Shown here: piece after piece, positions 1-16,219 of the stretch
How positions within the stretch are numbered: position 1 is the stretch's first letter
How the letters are laid out: every line of letters starts with the position of its first letter
Virus record (IMG/VR): IMGVR_UViG_3300045453_000018
Location: 1 to 23,058 of that record
Length of the DNA stretch: 23,058 nucleotides
DNA from: a virus
Direction: 5' to 3' (one strand)
Program-made: the position numbers and the translations under genes
Notes under the pieces: generated by a model
Told to the model about the DNA's origin: nothing
Database searches by the model: none
Seen by the model: only the letters and a program-made list of their open reading frames with translations

Positions 1-894
1 GCGCCCAATCGCCACCGGACGCTGCTAATTGCTCACCATGACAATACGCTGCCCGATGTGGATCGGGAGGTGCAGCGCGTGTCGAACATGCTGGCGCCGC
101 GGCTGCTGTTTTCCGAGGTGACGATTGCTACGCTGATCGATGAGCTGCAGCGCTCCCGATACGACATCATTTGGTTTGCGGGACATTCGTCGGAGGAAGG
201 GCTGGTGCTCGCCGACGGCATGTTGTCTGCATCGCAGTTGGTGCAGTTGTTGCGTCAGCAAACACCGCGGCTGGTGTTTCTCAATTCGTGCGCGTCGCTG
301 AAGGTGGCGATGGCGATTCACAATGAGATTGGTTGCGTCGTGATCGCGACGATTGCGGAGGTGGCTGATCTGCTGGCGTTCACGACGGGGGCACAGTTGG
401 CGGCGGCGTTGGCGGCAGGGATGCCGATCAGCGAGGCGTACCTGGTGAGCCGTCCCGGCGCCAATCGCCAGTATGTGCTGCTGGGCGGCCAGGCCGAGCG
501 CGGGGCGACGGACATCGAGGCGGATGAGATCAGGCTGATCCGGTTGTTCAATGAGTGGGGCGAGCGGATCGAGGGGAAGCTGGTCGGGCTGGAGACGCGC
601 GTCAATCGGCGGATCGATGATCTGCAGGGCGATGTCGATGAAATGCGCGGGGACGTGCAGCGGCTGACCGCGGAGACGAATACGCTCAACCCGACCAAGC
701 GGCTGTTGTGGGGTGTCGGGTTCGTGATGCTCTTTGTGCCGGTGATTGGTTTCTTTTCGGGCTGGCGTGAGTTTGCCGATATAAGCTGGCAGGCAGCCTA
801 TTTGTTCGCCGGGTTCTGCTATGTGTTCGCTGCGCTGCTATTTGGGCTGGGCATGGGGATTATCCGCATTGACCAGTTGATGCGAGGGCGCTGA
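1..894 (+). CDS. CHAT-like (caspase-fold) protease domain with coiled coil and two membrane spans, 5'-partial
   Basis: The reading frame is open to the left edge, and codons upstream of the GTG at 58 read as the first CHAT strand (RTLLIAHHDNTLPDVDREV), so the gene begins outside the window. The catalytic dyad of the CHAT/C25 clan appears intact: His in FAGHSS (codon 184-186) and Cys in FLNSCAS (codon 289-291), each after a hydrophobic strand. The stretch around 520-680 is a charged heptad-like coiled coil. Two hydrophobic segments follow (about 697-765 and 790-865), so the C-terminus is membrane-anchored and the protease domain is probably cytosolic. The TGA overlaps the next start (TGATG), which implies co-translation with the HNH gene. 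CHAT proteases are known in host-defence and cell-death systems; a protective or killing role here is inference. The family call is fairly secure, the function is not. Confidence 0.7.
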   Translation, partial: APNRHRTLLIAHHDNTLPDVDREVQRVSNMLAPRLLFSEVTIATLIDELQRSRYDIIWFAGHSSEEGLVLADGMLSASQLVQLLRQQTPRLVFLNSCASLKVAMAIHNEIGCVVIATIAEVADLLAFTTGAQLAAALAAGMPISEAYLVSRPGANRQYVLLGGQAERGATDIEADEIRLIRLFNEWGERIEGKLVGLETRVNRRIDDLQGDVDEMRGDVQRLTAETNTLNPTKRLLWGVGFVMLFVPVIGFFSGWREFADISWQAAYLFAGFCYVFAALLFGLGMGIIRIDQLMRGR

Positions 895-1241
895 TGCCGA
901 GTCGAGCGCCGACGGCGTGTCGGCGGCCGGGTTGCGCGGGGCTGGTGCGCAACGGGGTGTGCAATGTGTGCGGGCCGCTGCGTCGCCGGCGCGACAAGGA
1001 GATCGATGAGCGGCGCGGGTCGTCGTCACGGCGTGGCTATGGCTACAGTTGGCGCCGGTGGCGAGCCATGTACCTGCGGTCGCACCGACTGTGTGTGATC
1101 TGCCTGCGCAATGGTCGCGTCGAGCCTGCGACCGACGTGCATCACATCATCCCCAAACGTGACGGCGGGCTGGACATCGAGAGCAATCTGCAGGCGCTTT
1201 GCCATAGCTGTCATAGCCGGATTACGAATGCGGGCGGCTGA
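894..1241 (+). CDS. HNH endonuclease (HK97 gp74-like)
   Basis: This 115-aa protein has the HNH core near residues 81-110: DVHHIIPKRDGG (His83/His84), Asn98 in SNLQALC and the closing CHSCH. Two cysteine pairs, C67/C70 and C103/C106, form the usual structural zinc site. A second N-terminal knuckle is formed by C9, C14, C23 and C26. The SSRRGYGYSWRRWRAMYLR segment is typical of phage HNH proteins encoded beside terminase. In HK97-like phages this nuclease works with the terminase holoenzyme at cos cleavage during DNA packaging. The start overlaps the stop of the CHAT gene. The small terminase starts about 100 bp downstream. The gene appears complete. Confidence 0.9.
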   Translation: MPSRAPTACRRPGCAGLVRNGVCNVCGPLRRRRDKEIDERRGSSSRRGYGYSWRRWRAMYLRSHRLCVICLRNGRVEPATDVHHIIPKRDGGLDIESNLQALCHSCHSRITNAGG

Positions 1242-1342: not shown

Positions 1343-1777
1343 ATGGGGAATTTCCTGTCAGGGCAGAGGGATGTAGCCGCACAGCAGCACGGGGAGCCGC
1401 TGGCGATGCCTGATGGCCTTGACCCGACGTTGCTGCCGTACTGGGAGGCCGTTGCCAATCTGTTGCCAAAGGGGGTGGCCACCAAGCACGACACGCAGAT
1501 TGTGCTGCAACTATGCCAAGCGCTGCATGTGCGCGACCGTGCGTATGAGCAAATTCTGAGTGGCGGTATCGAGGTGGCGGACGCTGCGCACGGGGGCGAG
1601 CCACGCCGGAACCCGGCAATCATCACGTGGCGGCAGGCGGCAGACATGGCGACAGGACTGATGAATTTGCTTGGGCTGTCGCCGATCAGCAGAGCACGGA
1701 TACAGTCAGCCGATGGCGAAAAAGCAGACCCTCTCTCTGAGTTCATCCGGCACCGGCACGCGTCGGGCTCGGAGTAG
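1343..1777 (+). CDS. terS: Terminase small subunit, P27 family
   Basis: This 144-aa protein resembles P27-type small terminases. A helical core (LLPYWEAVANLLPKGVATKHD, then QIVLQLCQALHVRDRAYEQI) is followed by the family-like C-terminal segment ITWRQAADMATGLMNLLGLSPISRARI. Small terminases form rings that recognise phage DNA and load it onto the large subunit. The length suits the family. The start is the ATG at 1343; no strong Shine-Dalgarno sequence is visible. The 3' end overlaps the large terminase by 65 nt if that gene begins at 1713. The neighbouring HNH, large terminase and portal genes support the call. Confidence 0.85.
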   Translation: MGNFLSGQRDVAAQQHGEPLAMPDGLDPTLLPYWEAVANLLPKGVATKHDTQIVLQLCQALHVRDRAYEQILSGGIEVADAAHGGEPRRNPAIITWRQAADMATGLMNLLGLSPISRARIQSADGEKADPLSEFIRHRHASGSE

Positions 1778-3446
1778 GAAACACCCGGCTGAACGGTACA
1801 TTGACAATGTTATACGCGGGAAGGTGGTCGCGTGCCGATGGGTGCGCCTGTTCTGTGAGCGGCATAAGCGTGACCTGAAGCGGGGGCGCCAGCGCGGGCT
1901 GTATTTCGACCGTGACGCTGCGGCACATGCGATTGAGTGGTTCGATTATCTGCACCACAGCAAAGGGCGGTGGGCTGGACGGCTGATCGAGCTGGAGCCG
2001 TGGCAACAGGCGATTCTCTGGGTGCTGTTTGGATGGCACCGGAGATCGGGGGGGCGGCGGTTCCGGTCTGGCTATGTCGAGATTGCGCGCAAGAATGGCA
2101 AGAGTACGCTGGCGAGCGGGCTGGCGCTGTACATGCTGATCGCCGATGGCGAGGCCGGGGCGGAGGTGTATTCGGCAGCGACGAAACGGGATCAGGCAAA
2201 AATTACGTGGGATGAGGCGGCGCGGATGGTCAAGGCGTCGCCGCACCTACGCCGGCACGTGACGGTGCACAAGGACAAGCTCTTTCTGAAGTGGGACACG
2301 GCGAGCCTTTTTGTGCCGCTTGGACGTGACTCGGACACGATGGACGGGTTGAATGTGCATTGTGCGATTGTCGACGAGCTGCACGCCCACCGCACTTCGG
2401 AAATTTGGGATGTGCTGGAGACGGGGACAGTGGCACGCACGCAGCCGTTGATGTTTGGCATTACGACGGCAGGGTTTAACCAGTCGTCGTTCTGCTACGA
2501 GCGCCGGCGCTATACGCTGCAGGTGCTGGACGGTGTGATCGAGGATGATTCCCATTTTGGGATAATCTTCACGCTCGATGAGGGGGACGACGAGTGGGAC
2601 GAGCGCAATTGGATCAAGGCGAATCCCAACCTGGGCGTGAGTGTGGATTTGGTCGACCTGCGCGAGCAGGCGCGCAAGGCGAGGAAGATCGCCAGCGCGC
2701 TGACCTCCTTCCTGACGAAGCGGCTGAATGTCTGGACACGCGCGTCGGAGCAGTTCATTCACCCGGACAAGTGGAAGGGCTGCGGCGGGGCGTTGGATGT
2801 GGAAGCGCTGGCCGGGCGCACTTGCTATGGCGGGCTGGATTTGTCGAGCACGCTGGATATTACGGCTTGGGTGCTGGTCTTCCCGCCGACTGAGGATGAT
2901 CCATTGTGGCGGGTGCTGCCGCGGTTTTGGGTGCCGGAGACGGCCATGCACGAGCGCAGCAGGCGTGACCAGGTGCCCTATGATGCGTGGGTGCGGCAGG
3001 GCTGGATTGAGGCGATTCCCGGCGACGTGATCGATTATGAGTTTGTGTATGCCCAGATCGACCGGGATGCCCAGTTGTATGACGTGCGAGAGGTTGGGTT
3101 TGATCGATGGGGGGCGGCTGCGATTTATCTGTGGTTTGCTGCTCGCGGGATGACGGTCGTGCAGATTGGGCAGGGATATCAGTCGATGTCGGCGCCGATG
3201 AAGGAGATGGAGAAGCTGATTGTGAGTGGTCAGCTTGCGCACGGCGATAATCCTGTGCTGACGTGGATGGCCTACAACCTGGTTGCGCAGCGGGACCCGG
3301 CAGGCAATGTGAAGCCAGACAAGCGCCACAGTGGCGAAAAAATTGACGGGATCGTTGCGTTGGTTATGGCGTTGTCACGGGCGACGCTGCATGACCCAGA
3401 GAGTCAACGTTCGGTGTATGAGGAAAGGGGGATTCGGTCGCTATGA
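1713..3446 (+). CDS. terL: Terminase large subunit (HK97-type ATPase and nuclease)
   Basis: The 577-aa protein is the packaging motor. The N-terminal ATPase has a Walker A-type motif EIARKNGKST near residues 123-132 and Walker B IVDE at 219-222. The RNase H-like nuclease domain begins near CYGGLDLSST, where Asp376 is a likely metal ligand. It continues through REVGFDRWGAAAIY and ends with a DGIVALVMALSRA segment typical of this family. I chose the ATG at 1713; an in-frame TTG at 1671 would lengthen the overlap with terS and adds nothing family-like. The stop overlaps the next ATG (ATGA). Size and motifs match intact HK97/P27-associated large terminases. Confidence 0.96.
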   Translation: MAKKQTLSLSSSGTGTRRARSRKHPAERYIDNVIRGKVVACRWVRLFCERHKRDLKRGRQRGLYFDRDAAAHAIEWFDYLHHSKGRWAGRLIELEPWQQAILWVLFGWHRRSGGRRFRSGYVEIARKNGKSTLASGLALYMLIADGEAGAEVYSAATKRDQAKITWDEAARMVKASPHLRRHVTVHKDKLFLKWDTASLFVPLGRDSDTMDGLNVHCAIVDELHAHRTSEIWDVLETGTVARTQPLMFGITTAGFNQSSFCYERRRYTLQVLDGVIEDDSHFGIIFTLDEGDDEWDERNWIKANPNLGVSVDLVDLREQARKARKIASALTSFLTKRLNVWTRASEQFIHPDKWKGCGGALDVEALAGRTCYGGLDLSSTLDITAWVLVFPPTEDDPLWRVLPRFWVPETAMHERSRRDQVPYDAWVRQGWIEAIPGDVIDYEFVYAQIDRDAQLYDVREVGFDRWGAAAIYLWFAARGMTVVQIGQGYQSMSAPMKEMEKLIVSGQLAHGDNPVLTWMAYNLVAQRDPAGNVKPDKRHSGEKIDGIVALVMALSRATLHDPESQRSVYEERGIRSL

Positions 3447-8200: not shown

Positions 8201-8743
8201 ATGCCCTTTCTGGAGATTCTGACCCGAACGTATAAGCGGCCGACGATGTTGGCGGCGAACCAGGCGAGCCTGGCGGCGCAGACATCGGGCGACTGGCAGC
8301 AGACGCTGCTCGTCGACGATGTTGGCCGCGGCTGCGGCTGGGCGAATGCGCAACTTGGGCAGTATGCGCCGCAGTTGGTTGGCGACTTCATCTGGGTCCT
8401 GGACGATGACGACGTGTGTATCGACGAGTCGCTGGTCGAGCAGCTTGCGCTGATCGTGCAGTTGGCGGCGCCGGATGTGATCATGATGCGCATGGATCAC
8501 GGTCCGCTGGGCGTGCTGCCGGATGGGGCGCACTGGCGCAAGCGGCCGGTCAGAGGGCACATCGGGGTCAGCGCGTGTGTGATCCGGCGTGAATTGTTCC
8601 AACAGTGCGCAGGGGCGTGGAAAGAGGTATATGACGGCGATTTCGACTTCATCGCCGCCGTGTTCGACGCCAAGCCGATTGTGTTCTGGTATGACTGCAT
8701 CGCCTCCAGGGTGCAGCGAATCAGCAGGGGGGCGCCGGAATGA
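8201..8743 (+). CDS. Glycosyltransferase, GT-A fold (GT2-like)
   Basis: This 180-aa protein begins with the GT2-type strand-helix start FLEILTRTYKRPTMLAANQASLAAQT and DWQQTLLVDD. It has an acidic metal and nucleotide-sugar site in FIWVLDDDDV (Asp68-Asp71). A C-terminal acceptor-side segment GHIGVSACVIRRELF and DGDFDFIAAVF follows. It is shorter than bacterial GT2 enzymes and has no membrane segment, so it is probably a soluble enzyme that transfers sugar to a protein. Its place between the capsid and neck genes suggests the virion as the target, which is inference. It overlaps the next gene by ATGA. Donor and acceptor are unknown. Confidence 0.75.
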   Translation: MPFLEILTRTYKRPTMLAANQASLAAQTSGDWQQTLLVDDVGRGCGWANAQLGQYAPQLVGDFIWVLDDDDVCIDESLVEQLALIVQLAAPDVIMMRMDHGPLGVLPDGAHWRKRPVRGHIGVSACVIRRELFQQCAGAWKEVYDGDFDFIAAVFDAKPIVFWYDCIASRVQRISRGAPE

Positions 8744-9678
8744 GTAGGGTGCTGATTTTCACGCCGACCTATACAGACCCGACGACGGGGAAGGATGCGA
8801 TGCACCCGGCGTGTGAGGCGTCGGTGATCGTGCAGTTGCGCACGTTCGAGGGCTACGCCGATTGGCGCGTCGGGCGGGAGAATCCGTACCCGGTGGGCGA
8901 CTATCGGAATGTGCTGCATCAGTACCAGGTGGCGCGGGAGGTCTTCCTCGCCGGGGAGTGGGATGCGCTGCTGACGGTGGAGCACGACAACGAGATGCCG
9001 GACGACGCGCTGCAGCGGATGTACGGGACGGCGGCCGATGTGGTCTATGCGCCCTATGTGCTGCGGCACGGGATGCGGCAGTTGTCGACGTGGCAGTATA
9101 TCAACGACCGGAACCTGGGAATGTCGCTGACGTTGTACCCGTTCGAACTGGCGCAATTCAAGGCGGCCGGGGTGGGGCGGGTGAGCGGCGTGGGGCACGG
9201 CTGCACGCTCTTCCGGCGGCACACGCTGGAGGCGCTGCCCTTCCGTGAGGTGGGGGACGGTGTGAATTTCTGTCCCGACATTCCGTTCGCCGAGGATGCG
9301 CTGCGGATGGGGTTTGTGAGCATGGGGCGCTTTGACGCACCGGTGGCGCACTGGGAGAAGGGTGTGCGGCTGGAGCCGTATCAGGAGGGAGGGCTGGTGC
9401 TCTACACTGCGACCGAAACATGCAATGCGCTGGCCGATGGGAAGATGATTCACCTGGAGGCCGGGAAGACGTATGAGTTGACGCCGATTGCGGCGGCGGA
9501 TTTGATCCGCGCCGGGTATCTGGCGCAGGAGCGGGCCACTGTGGCGCCTAGCGAGTTGCGAGGGGCGAGGGGCGAGGAATGCCCGCGCAGCCGCGCAAGA
9601 GGGCGAAGGGGTAACCATGTTCGAGGGTCAGTTGGTGGTGGTGACGGCGCCGACAGAGGAGCCGATCACGCTGAGTGA
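8740..9678 (+). CDS. Second glycosyltransferase-like protein (GT-A fold)
   Basis: This 312-aa protein has GT-A hallmarks: start RVLIFTPTY, a metal-site-like acidic motif LLTVEHDNEMPDDAL (Glu81-Glu85), a VVYAPYVLR strand, and VSGVGHGCTLFRRHTLEALPF, the acceptor-loop region of many phage and GT2-like enzymes, followed by EDALRMGF and an HWEKGV ligand-like His. It is coupled to the first glycosyltransferase, suggesting sequential or paired sugar transfer. The last 40 residues (from ELRGARGEE) are encoded by GCGAGGGGCG repeats plus out-of-frame reading of the next gene, giving a 62-nt overlap. That tail is probably not part of the fold. Confidence 0.7.
   Translation: MSRVLIFTPTYTDPTTGKDAMHPACEASVIVQLRTFEGYADWRVGRENPYPVGDYRNVLHQYQVAREVFLAGEWDALLTVEHDNEMPDDALQRMYGTAADVVYAPYVLRHGMRQLSTWQYINDRNLGMSLTLYPFELAQFKAAGVGRVSGVGHGCTLFRRHTLEALPFREVGDGVNFCPDIPFAEDALRMGFVSMGRFDAPVAHWEKGVRLEPYQEGGLVLYTATETCNALADGKMIHLEAGKTYELTPIAAADLIRAGYLAQERATVAPSELRGARGEECPRSRARGRRGNHVRGSVGGGDGADRGADHAE
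9553..9600. repeat. GCGAGGGGCGAGG repeat run in the 3' end of the second glycosyltransferase gene
   Basis: 9553-9568 matches 3449-3464 exactly over 16 bases, and 9562-9575 matches 3642-3655 exactly over 14 bases. All three copies lie at gene ends. The run introduces an Arg/Gly/Glu-rich tail with no counterpart in the enzyme fold. Confidence 0.6.
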
Positions 9679-11425: not shown

Positions 11426-12022
11426 ATGGCAGTAACAGATATTCTGGTGACGCCGGCGAAGATTTACCGTGCGCCTGTGGGCACGGCGGTGCCGGATGAG
11501 ACAAGCGTCGCCTACGGTGCGGCGTGGGGCGCCTCGTGGACGGATTTGGGCTACACGCTGGAGCCGGTGAGTTTGAGCTATGAGTCGGAGACTTTTAAGT
11601 TGATGGTGGAACAACTGACGGCGCCGGTGCGCTCGGTGCGGCAAGAGGAATCGGTCACGATCGAGACGGTGCTGGCGGAGATCACCGGCGCCAATCTGGG
11701 CATGGTGCTCGATGGCACGGTGACGACTACGGCAGCAGGCGCGGCGCAGGCCGGTTTTGATGCGGTGGAGGCCGGCGGCAGCGTGAGCATCAGTGAGTAT
11801 GCGTGGGGCTTCGAGGGCTATCGGCTGACATCGGTAAACGCCAAGCTTCCGGTGCGGGTGTTTGTATATCGCGGCGTGGCGACGCTCAACGGGCAGTTGA
11901 CTTTTGCCAAAAGCGCCGGGGTGGGGATTCCACTGCGCATCGAGGTGCTGCCAGATACGACAAAGGCCGCAGGCAAGCAATTGCTTTTGATCCACAACGT
12001 GACGGCGGCTGCGACCTCATGA
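11426..12022 (+). CDS. Major tail tube protein
   Basis: This 198-aa protein builds the tail tube. It is rich in beta strand and begins with ILVTPAKIYRAPVGTAVPDET. It continues with LGYTLEPVSLSYESETFKL and ends with KLPVRVFVYRGVATLNGQL and IPLRIEVLPD. The same fold is repeated at 15431-16219, where 53 of the first 93 aligned residues are identical by my hand alignment. The start is the ATG at 11426, not the TTG at 11399, because AAAGGAG (11413-11419) precedes it at 6 nt. The stop overlaps the chaperone start by ATGA. It follows the terminator and precedes the chaperone pair, the standard tail order. Confidence 0.88.
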   Translation: MAVTDILVTPAKIYRAPVGTAVPDETSVAYGAAWGASWTDLGYTLEPVSLSYESETFKLMVEQLTAPVRSVRQEESVTIETVLAEITGANLGMVLDGTVTTTAAGAAQAGFDAVEAGGSVSISEYAWGFEGYRLTSVNAKLPVRVFVYRGVATLNGQLTFAKSAGVGIPLRIEVLPDTTKAAGKQLLLIHNVTAAATS

Positions 12023-14336: not shown

Positions 14337-15431
14337 ATGAGTTGGATTAGATTTGGGCAACTATCGGCGGAAACGCAGAGCCTGGCGGATGTGACGGGGC
14401 TGGGCGGCGCCGGGTATACAGTTAGCAATACCGTAGCGTACACGGGAACATGGTCCTATCGCAGCAGCGGCACAAATGCACCGCACGGTTTCGCAGGCGC
14501 ATTTGGTGCAACGGCACGATGCGGGATGCATTTTCGCCATAATAGCGCCACCTCCGGCAATATTCCCCCTATTATTGGGATGATGGTTGACGGCGCATCT
14601 TTGGTTTTTCGGTTTAACCCAACTAATAACGATGTAACCCTGGTCGCAGGCTATGTGATCGGGACTTCGACTGTGCAGATAGCGGTGACGCAAAATGTTC
14701 CAGTGTTGGCCAATGTCAATACTTGGCGACATGTGGCGATGATCGCAAATATTGCAGCAACAGATGGATTTGCGTCATTGTATGTGGATGGCGTCAAAGT
14801 GGCGGAGTGGACAGGCGACACCCGACTATATCGATCGGGGGAAAGCACGCCGCGCACAGCGATTACAGGCATTTACGCGGCGGGCACGGGACTTAATTGG
14901 CCTGGCGCAGGATCGCACAACTGGGGACTACATGTTTATGTAGACGATTTCTATGCTGACTTTTGGGATGGTGTCGGGACACTAGTCAATGCGCCGCCGC
15001 CGACACGAAGATTCCTGGCTGCATTTCCAAATGGGGCAGGCAGTTCAACGCAATGGACGCCGAGCACCGGATCGAATTGGCAAAATGTGGATGAGGCGCC
15101 GCCGAACGATGAGACGGATTTTAATAGAGCGCAAGCGCCCAATCTGCTCGATTTGTATGCATTCAGTGACGTGACGGTGCCTCTGGATCATGCGGTGCGG
15201 GCGGTGATTCCGATAGCCTATGCGCGCAAGAGCGACGCCGGAGTAGATAGTCAAGTGAGGGTTGTGGCAAAGACAGGCGCCAACATAGTCAAGAGTGATG
15301 CAAAGGCGCTGCCCACCAGCTACGGCTATGTCTGGGAGCGCTGGACGACGCAGGCGGATGGTGCTTCTGCCTGGACAGAGGCAGCGGTGAATGCGGCTGA
15401 GTTCGGAGTTGAATCCGCAGGGACGTTCTGA
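14337..15431 (+). CDS. LamG/concanavalin-type tail protein, probable adhesin
   Basis: This 364-aa protein has a jelly-roll-like first half with the LamG-type strand pair NVNTWRHVAMIANIAATDG and SLYVDGVKVAEW (about residues 123-160). The second half, beginning PPPTRRFLAAFPNGAG with WTPSTGSNWQNVDEAPPND and closing with EFGVES, matches a segment I know from tail proteins in many phages. Such domains often bind host glycans or proteins. Codons are visibly more AT-rich than in flanking genes, which suggests separate acquisition. The stop overlaps the next ATG (TGATG). A GTG at 14331 is an alternative start. Receptor specificity cannot be inferred. Confidence 0.75.
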   Translation: MSWIRFGQLSAETQSLADVTGLGGAGYTVSNTVAYTGTWSYRSSGTNAPHGFAGAFGATARCGMHFRHNSATSGNIPPIIGMMVDGASLVFRFNPTNNDVTLVAGYVIGTSTVQIAVTQNVPVLANVNTWRHVAMIANIAATDGFASLYVDGVKVAEWTGDTRLYRSGESTPRTAITGIYAAGTGLNWPGAGSHNWGLHVYVDDFYADFWDGVGTLVNAPPPTRRFLAAFPNGAGSSTQWTPSTGSNWQNVDEAPPNDETDFNRAQAPNLLDLYAFSDVTVPLDHAVRAVIPIAYARKSDAGVDSQVRVVAKTGANIVKSDAKALPTSYGYVWERWTTQADGASAWTEAAVNAAEFGVESAGTF

Positions 15432-16219
15432 TGGCCGAGGCGAGGATTAGCCAGGCGGCGGCGCTAGTTGAGCTGGATGCGCAAAGCGTTCGAGCCAGCC
15501 AGGCGGCGGCGCTAGTTGAGCTGGATGCGCAAAGCGTTCGAGCCAGCCAGGCGGCGCTGTTAATTGAAATCGATCAGATTCAGATTCACATCAGCCAGAT
15601 GGTGGGGCTGATCGAATTTGAGTATGAACCAGCGCCAGAGCCATCGGCCAGGAGCGCATTGCTCGTTACGGCGGCAATATTGTATCGGGCGCCGGTGGGC
15701 GAGGCCGTACCAGATGAGACAACCATCGGCTATGGGGAGGCGTGGGGTGGTAATTGGATGAGCCTGGGCTATACACTGGAGCCGCTGCGCTTTTCGCTGG
15801 AGAGTGACCTGGTGCACGTGCGCGTCGAGCAATTGCTGTCGGCGGTGCGCATCTTCCGCCGACAGGAGGGGTTGGTGCTGGAGACGACGCTGGCCGAGAT
15901 GACGACCGAGAACCTGGAGATGGTGTTCGATGGCGCGGTGACGGTCGGCGATGGCTATGCGGTGATCGAGGTGGGCGGCAATTTTGCGATGCGTGAATGG
16001 GCGTGGGGCTTCGAGGGCTACCGGCTGAGCGACGCCGGCGAGAAGCTTCCGGTGCGCTTCTTCGTGCATAAGGGTGTGGCGGTGCTGGCCGGGGCACTGC
16101 GCATGGGCAAAGGCACGCCGACGGGCATCCCGCTGCGCATCGAGGCTGTAGCCGATCTGACCAGGCCGGCGGGCAAGCAGTTGGTGGAGAGCCACATTGT
16201 GACGGCGAAGGCGGCATAG
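15431..16219 (+). CDS. Tail-tube paralogue fused to four N-terminal 16-residue repeats
   Basis: Residues 7-70 are four 16-residue units: two identical SQAAALVELDAQSVRA, then SQAALLIEIDQIQIHI and SQMVGLIEFEYEPAPE. Residues 79-262 are a second copy of the tail tube fold (YRAPVGEAVPDET, LGYTLEP, AWGFEGYRL, KLPVRFFVHKGVAVL, IPLRIEAVAD, AGKQLVE). The SQxxxLVE motif usually follows LamG-type tail modules like the one upstream, so this gene joins a piece of that module to a tail-tube domain. Position between the adhesin and the distal tail protein points to a ring at the tube-tip junction, which is inference. No separate strong ribosome binding site is seen; translation is probably coupled by TGATG. 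Confidence 0.75.
   Translation: MAEARISQAAALVELDAQSVRASQAAALVELDAQSVRASQAALLIEIDQIQIHISQMVGLIEFEYEPAPEPSARSALLVTAAILYRAPVGEAVPDETTIGYGEAWGGNWMSLGYTLEPLRFSLESDLVHVRVEQLLSAVRIFRRQEGLVLETTLAEMTTENLEMVFDGAVTVGDGYAVIEVGGNFAMREWAWGFEGYRLSDAGEKLPVRFFVHKGVAVLAGALRMGKGTPTGIPLRIEAVADLTRPAGKQLVESHIVTAKAA
15449..15640 (+). repeat. Tandem 48-bp repeat, four units
   Basis: Units start at 15451, 15499, 15547 and 15595 with a period of 48 bp. Units 1 and 2 (15451-15498 and 15499-15546) are identical at every base; units 3 and 4 are diverged in sequence but keep the 16-residue period and the SQxxxLIE pattern. The exact pair indicates a recent duplication, and the repeat number may vary between relatives. Confidence 0.95.

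Follow-up and report, generated by a model that had tools for sequence, protein, structure and literature searches.

CHAT proteases have been studied as effectors of bacterial immunity and cell death, and a gene that appears to encode one beside the packaging genes of a phage raises the question of what such an enzyme would do for a virus. The window analyzed here is an entire virus record of 23,058 bases, with nothing to fetch upstream of positions 1-894, and the left end of the record interrupts the open frame there. A preliminary description of this DNA had assigned to the frame a His/Cys CHAT domain, a coiled coil and two membrane helices, all of which were borne out by Pfam, an AlphaFold model and hydropathy (Table 1). 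In the closest relative, L002, which is 89% identical across all 297 residues, the 5' end is intact and the full-length protein has 307 amino acids, indicating that the window copy is short by about 10 N-terminal residues. Judged by L002, the full gene begins about 16 residues ahead of the first strand. The sensor suspected upstream did not materialize: the full gene in L002 encodes no N-terminal sensor domain, and the genes 5' of CHAT in the relatives, which encode an SH3b/DUF4236 protein, small membrane proteins or a holin, provide none either.

Table 1 Features of the CHAT locus in the window and coordinates of CHAT-less anchor proteins in other contigs.
Feature	Coordinates	Strand	Basis
CHAT protease gene, 5' end cut by record end (297 of ~307 codons)	1..894	+	Open frame, Pfam, relative L002
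CHAT (caspase-fold) domain, residues 1-167	1..501	+	Pfam PF12770; model matched to 8tl0 over residues 4-167
Predicted catalytic His62 codon (WFAGH motif), directly after strand 56-60	184..186	+	Invariant in 20 homologs; model
Predicted catalytic Cys97 codon (LNSCAS motif), directly after strand 91-95	289..291	+	Invariant in 20 homologs; model
Coiled-coil stalk, residues 171-226	511..678	+	Single long model helix, lower confidence
Two-helix membrane hairpin, residues 231-252 and 263-285	691..855	+	Model helices; hydropathy
HNH endonuclease; start shares one base with CHAT stop	894..1241	+	Pfam PF01844, phrog_144
Terminase small subunit (TerS)	1343..1777	+	Pfam Terminase_4
Terminase large subunit (TerL)	1716..3446	+	Pfam TerL_ATPase and TerL_nuclease
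CHAT-less coiled-coil/2TM anchor protein	L062:3683-4228		
CHAT-less coiled-coil/2TM anchor protein	L064:3749-4237		
CHAT-less coiled-coil/2TM anchor protein	L005:7578-8090		

The window protein matched the Pfam CHAT profile at 40 bits (cut-off 24, E 4e-10), and the same profile matched 14 of 15 homologs scanned (E 0.01). The AlphaFold model (mean pLDDT 79, >80 across most of residues 1-150) revealed a caspase-type strand order and one 56-residue helix; pLDDT in the stalk is about 51-69 (residues 161-230), and its exact shape is not fixed by the model. The best match among solved structures was SAVED-CHAT (8tl0; Z 20.8, rmsd 2.0, 161 residues aligned), followed by caspases, legumain, gingipain and separase (Z about 13-15), with caspase-7 at the top of the rows below 8tl0 (Z 14.7). 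A profile search paired the His and Cys motifs with those of 8tl0 (E 1e-4). The identification had been staked on the caspase-hemoglobinase fold and on the survival of the dyad in relatives; the model superposes on that fold, and His62 and Cys97 of the window protein are unchanged in all 20 phage proteins compared, most of which share 23-40% identity with it. Each of the 20 also has a predicted membrane segment in its C-terminal part, and across the family the coiled-coil stalk comes with one or two membrane helices. Overall, the window gene very probably encodes a membrane-anchored CHAT protease and, judging from sequence, the protease is probably enzymatically active.

The dN/dS of the whole CHAT gene is about 0.17 (dN 0.063, dS 0.373; window vs. 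L002), indicating purifying selection. This value and the invariant His-Cys dyad leave next to no likelihood that the gene is an inactive remnant of a captured host gene, an explanation for which no supporting point was found. In the same comparison, the CHAT half had a dN/dS of about 0.22 (dN 0.104), the stalk about 0.06 (dN 0.015) and TerL about 0.07 (dN 0.017). Since dS was also higher in the CHAT half (0.47 against 0.25), recombination at the module boundary could explain its faster change.

We then considered how far the family extends. With four members as tblastn queries, no family match was found among 50,697 named phage records, and plasmids yielded none. A first scan of bacterial genomes, with short patterns that distant chromosomal relatives could escape, returned nothing, and the sole match of a second short-pattern scan was a phage contig in an Azonexus MAG. 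This contig, L045 (CALJZP010000306.1), was placed in an Azonexus bin; its CHAT gene is accompanied by genes for phage heads and tails, and it is probably phage and possibly misbinned. The family is apparently phage-only. Among viral predicted structures, three fold matches had E <0.001, including one uncharacterized myovirus protein and one giant-virus caspase, so caspase folds are not unheard of in viruses. The window protein had no match in NCBIfam, and its PHROGs matches were weak, fell in the coiled-coil region and led to function-less families. PADLOC gave weak matches in 7 of 15 members, the best being to BovA (2.6e-4), with the first member covering part of the 711-position profile; none of the 15 convincingly matched a catalogued defense component. 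Present annotation therefore largely misses the family, and no paper describing phage CHAT proteases was found in the literature collection searched.

Homologs came from IMG/VR searches, first with the terminase as query and later with family alignments, and were sorted by eye on CHAT similarity into eight groups. Group (a), the window and L002, has the order integrase, SH3b/DUF4236 protein, 98-amino acid two-TM protein, CHAT, HNH, TerS and TerL, and group (b), L007, has integrase, LL-H-type holin, CHAT, a small gene, HNH, TerS and TerL. In group (c) (L016, L044, L039 and L049), CHAT is followed by a three-TM protein and, in L016, then by HNH and terminase. The largest, group (d) (L029-L033, L045-L047 and L057), places CHAT, where the surroundings are present, between connector-like and HK97-gp10-like/gp17-like tail-completion genes. 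Group (e), L035, runs from CHAT through a TM protein and a holin-like protein to an M23+SLT endolysin. Group (f) consists of L037 and L038 and group (h) of L050, and in group (g) (L040/L041) CHAT lies upstream of terminase, with a cell-wall hydrolase further on; L051 resembles group (g), but its reading frame breaks after 86 codons. Integrases lie near the CHAT locus in L002, L007, L016 and L044. The endolysin candidate of L035 (L035:7546-9807, 754 amino acids) combines an M23 peptidase with an SLT transglycosylase, and its N-terminal part looks glycoside hydrolase-like by eye.

As first described, the CHAT stop overlaps the HNH start in the window (TGA 892-894 and ATG 894-896, one base in common); in L002 the two lie one base apart. 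The coupling to packaging read from this arrangement stands in part: the CHAT-HNH-TerS-TerL order is kept in the 89% relative and is looser in diverged phages, and an exclusive tie to HNH and packaging genes gave way to several late-gene slots. The CHAT gene is also patchy among TerL relatives, some of which carry it and others do not. Given this patchiness and the several neighborhoods, the gene is optional and shifts between late slots. The connector slot of group (d), flanked by tail-completion genes, would suit a virion morphogenesis protease, but we find this role very improbable, as the window already encodes an S78 prohead protease (Pfam), the CHAT protein carries a membrane anchor, and its gene moves between slots and is missing from some TerL relatives.

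Two other stretches of the window deserve mention. Two genes (8201-8743 and 8740-9678) lie between the major capsid and connector genes; the first weakly resembles glycosyltransferase family 2 (E 0.0016, below cut-off) and the second has no match. Further on, 15431-16219 (262 amino acids) is a second copy of the upstream tail-tube-like protein at 11429-12022 (52% identity, 195 residues), extended at the N-terminus by repeated ASQAAALVELDAQS motifs.

The window protein shares a homologous coiled-coil/two-TM module with groups (b) and (d). The module has further homologs in CHAT-less proteins whose genes directly follow the connector gene, in L005/L006 (E 1.9e-19) and, at weaker similarity, in L015. 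In such CHAT-less proteins the module occurs with another N-terminus or with none. L062-L064 share the arrangement of L005, with a short NVVVGKxNRQ-type N-terminus where CHAT would be, again in the connector slot; L062 and L063 duplicate the L005 and L006 contigs. Exchanged N-termini on one anchor in one slot resemble the domain shuffling of conflict effectors. We tentatively favor, at somewhat less than even confidence, the reading that this membrane-tethered CHAT cysteine protease, optional in late operons, is an effector of phage-phage or phage-host competition and not a structural or essential lysis protein. Its invariant dyad, its optional gene, its different slots, module swapping typical of conflict effectors, the faster CHAT half and the nearby integrases would all fit such a role, as would a CHAT start that, in 9 of 17 loci, overlaps the gene before it or follows it by no more than 16 bases.

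The neighboring genes bear on the main rival to a competition effector, a role in lysis timing. A small membrane-protein gene adjoins CHAT in 8 of 18 loci, with at least one such locus in 5 of the 8 groups, versus 27 of 216 other genes (12.5%) in the same loci, which are not independent of one another; the gene caller and hydropathy scan behind the neighborhood counts were home-made, and some minus-strand calls are clearly spurious. The gene caller found such a neighbor in 0 of 7 loci of the connector-slot group, and direct ORF listing gave one in L030/L031. By curated criteria, the sole holin is the L007 neighbor (PF09682, phrog_6918), directly ahead of CHAT. No gasdermin was found among those CHAT neighbors that were scanned against Pfam. 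The association is suggestive, not general, and a universal holin-like partner is ruled out, as the connector-slot group mostly lacks one.

A lysis-linked protease would cleave or gate the adjacent holin-like small membrane protein and so set lysis timing, by a logic like that of protease-activated gasdermins. The curated holin of L007, the holin-like protein and endolysin downstream of CHAT in L035 and the excess of small TM neighbors point this way, as does the activation of bacterial gasdermins by dedicated proteases and the clustering of some fungal gasdermins with CHAT proteases (PMC10989679). However, the largest group mostly lacks the neighbor, the small membrane proteins share no common family match, and the CHAT gene is optional whereas lysis is essential; we consider this role unlikely, though worth keeping in view.

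Rather less probable still is counter-defense, in which the phage protease would destroy a membrane-proximal host defense protein or set off a host CHAT pathway prematurely. Such a role would suit an optional, apparently phage-only family that keeps its active site while its catalytic half changes fast, and bacterial immunity involves CHAT proteases (PMC11229360). Its place in operons alongside holin, connector and terminase genes points to late expression, however, which would be too late for most defenses.

Were the protein a competition effector, it would be made together with late or lysis-linked proteins and sit on the inner face of the cytoplasmic membrane. A trigger, perhaps clustering through the coiled coil, would switch on the protease, which would then cleave a membrane-proximal protein, and the infected or lysogenic cell would be shut down or closed to rivals. 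The protein may serve superinfection exclusion or host killing, as proposed in the preliminary description; a gene packed into such operons would be expected to stay silent in a lysogen, a point against classic prophage immunity. It is doubtful, if conceivable, that the protein is a phage-owned caspase-like executioner whose cleavage of a small phage or host membrane protein late in infection would kill or seal the cell. A conserved CHAT family resident in phages that retains the dyad and has a membrane anchor would show phages using a weapon of the bacterial defense type, and would offer a compact single-gene system for testing the triggering and targets of CHAT proteases.

Among known systems, the phage protein shares with SAVED-CHAT of type III CRISPR (PDB 8tl0) the CHAT fold and the His and Cys positions; unlike SAVED-CHAT, it is membrane-anchored and phage-encoded, with no CRISPR locus and no SAVED domain, CHAT beginning at about residue 16 of the L002 protein and no other Pfam domain scoring above cut-off. 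With TPR-CHAT of Craspase it shares the caspase-fold protease domain (Z 13.4), but it has no TPR region (no room, no match) and no gRAMP partner. As in protease-activated gasdermin systems, the protease gene sometimes lies beside a membrane protein gene, whereas the neighbors here encode a holin or small proteins with 1-3 TM segments and the partnership is putative. PdpSau, a prophage-encoded membrane-anchored abortive-infection protein linked to holin (PMC10127798), is likewise a holin-linked phage accessory gene product with a membrane anchor, but it is not described as a protease. By analogy, PdpSau supplies a precedent in function for exclusion exerted from a comparable place in the genome.
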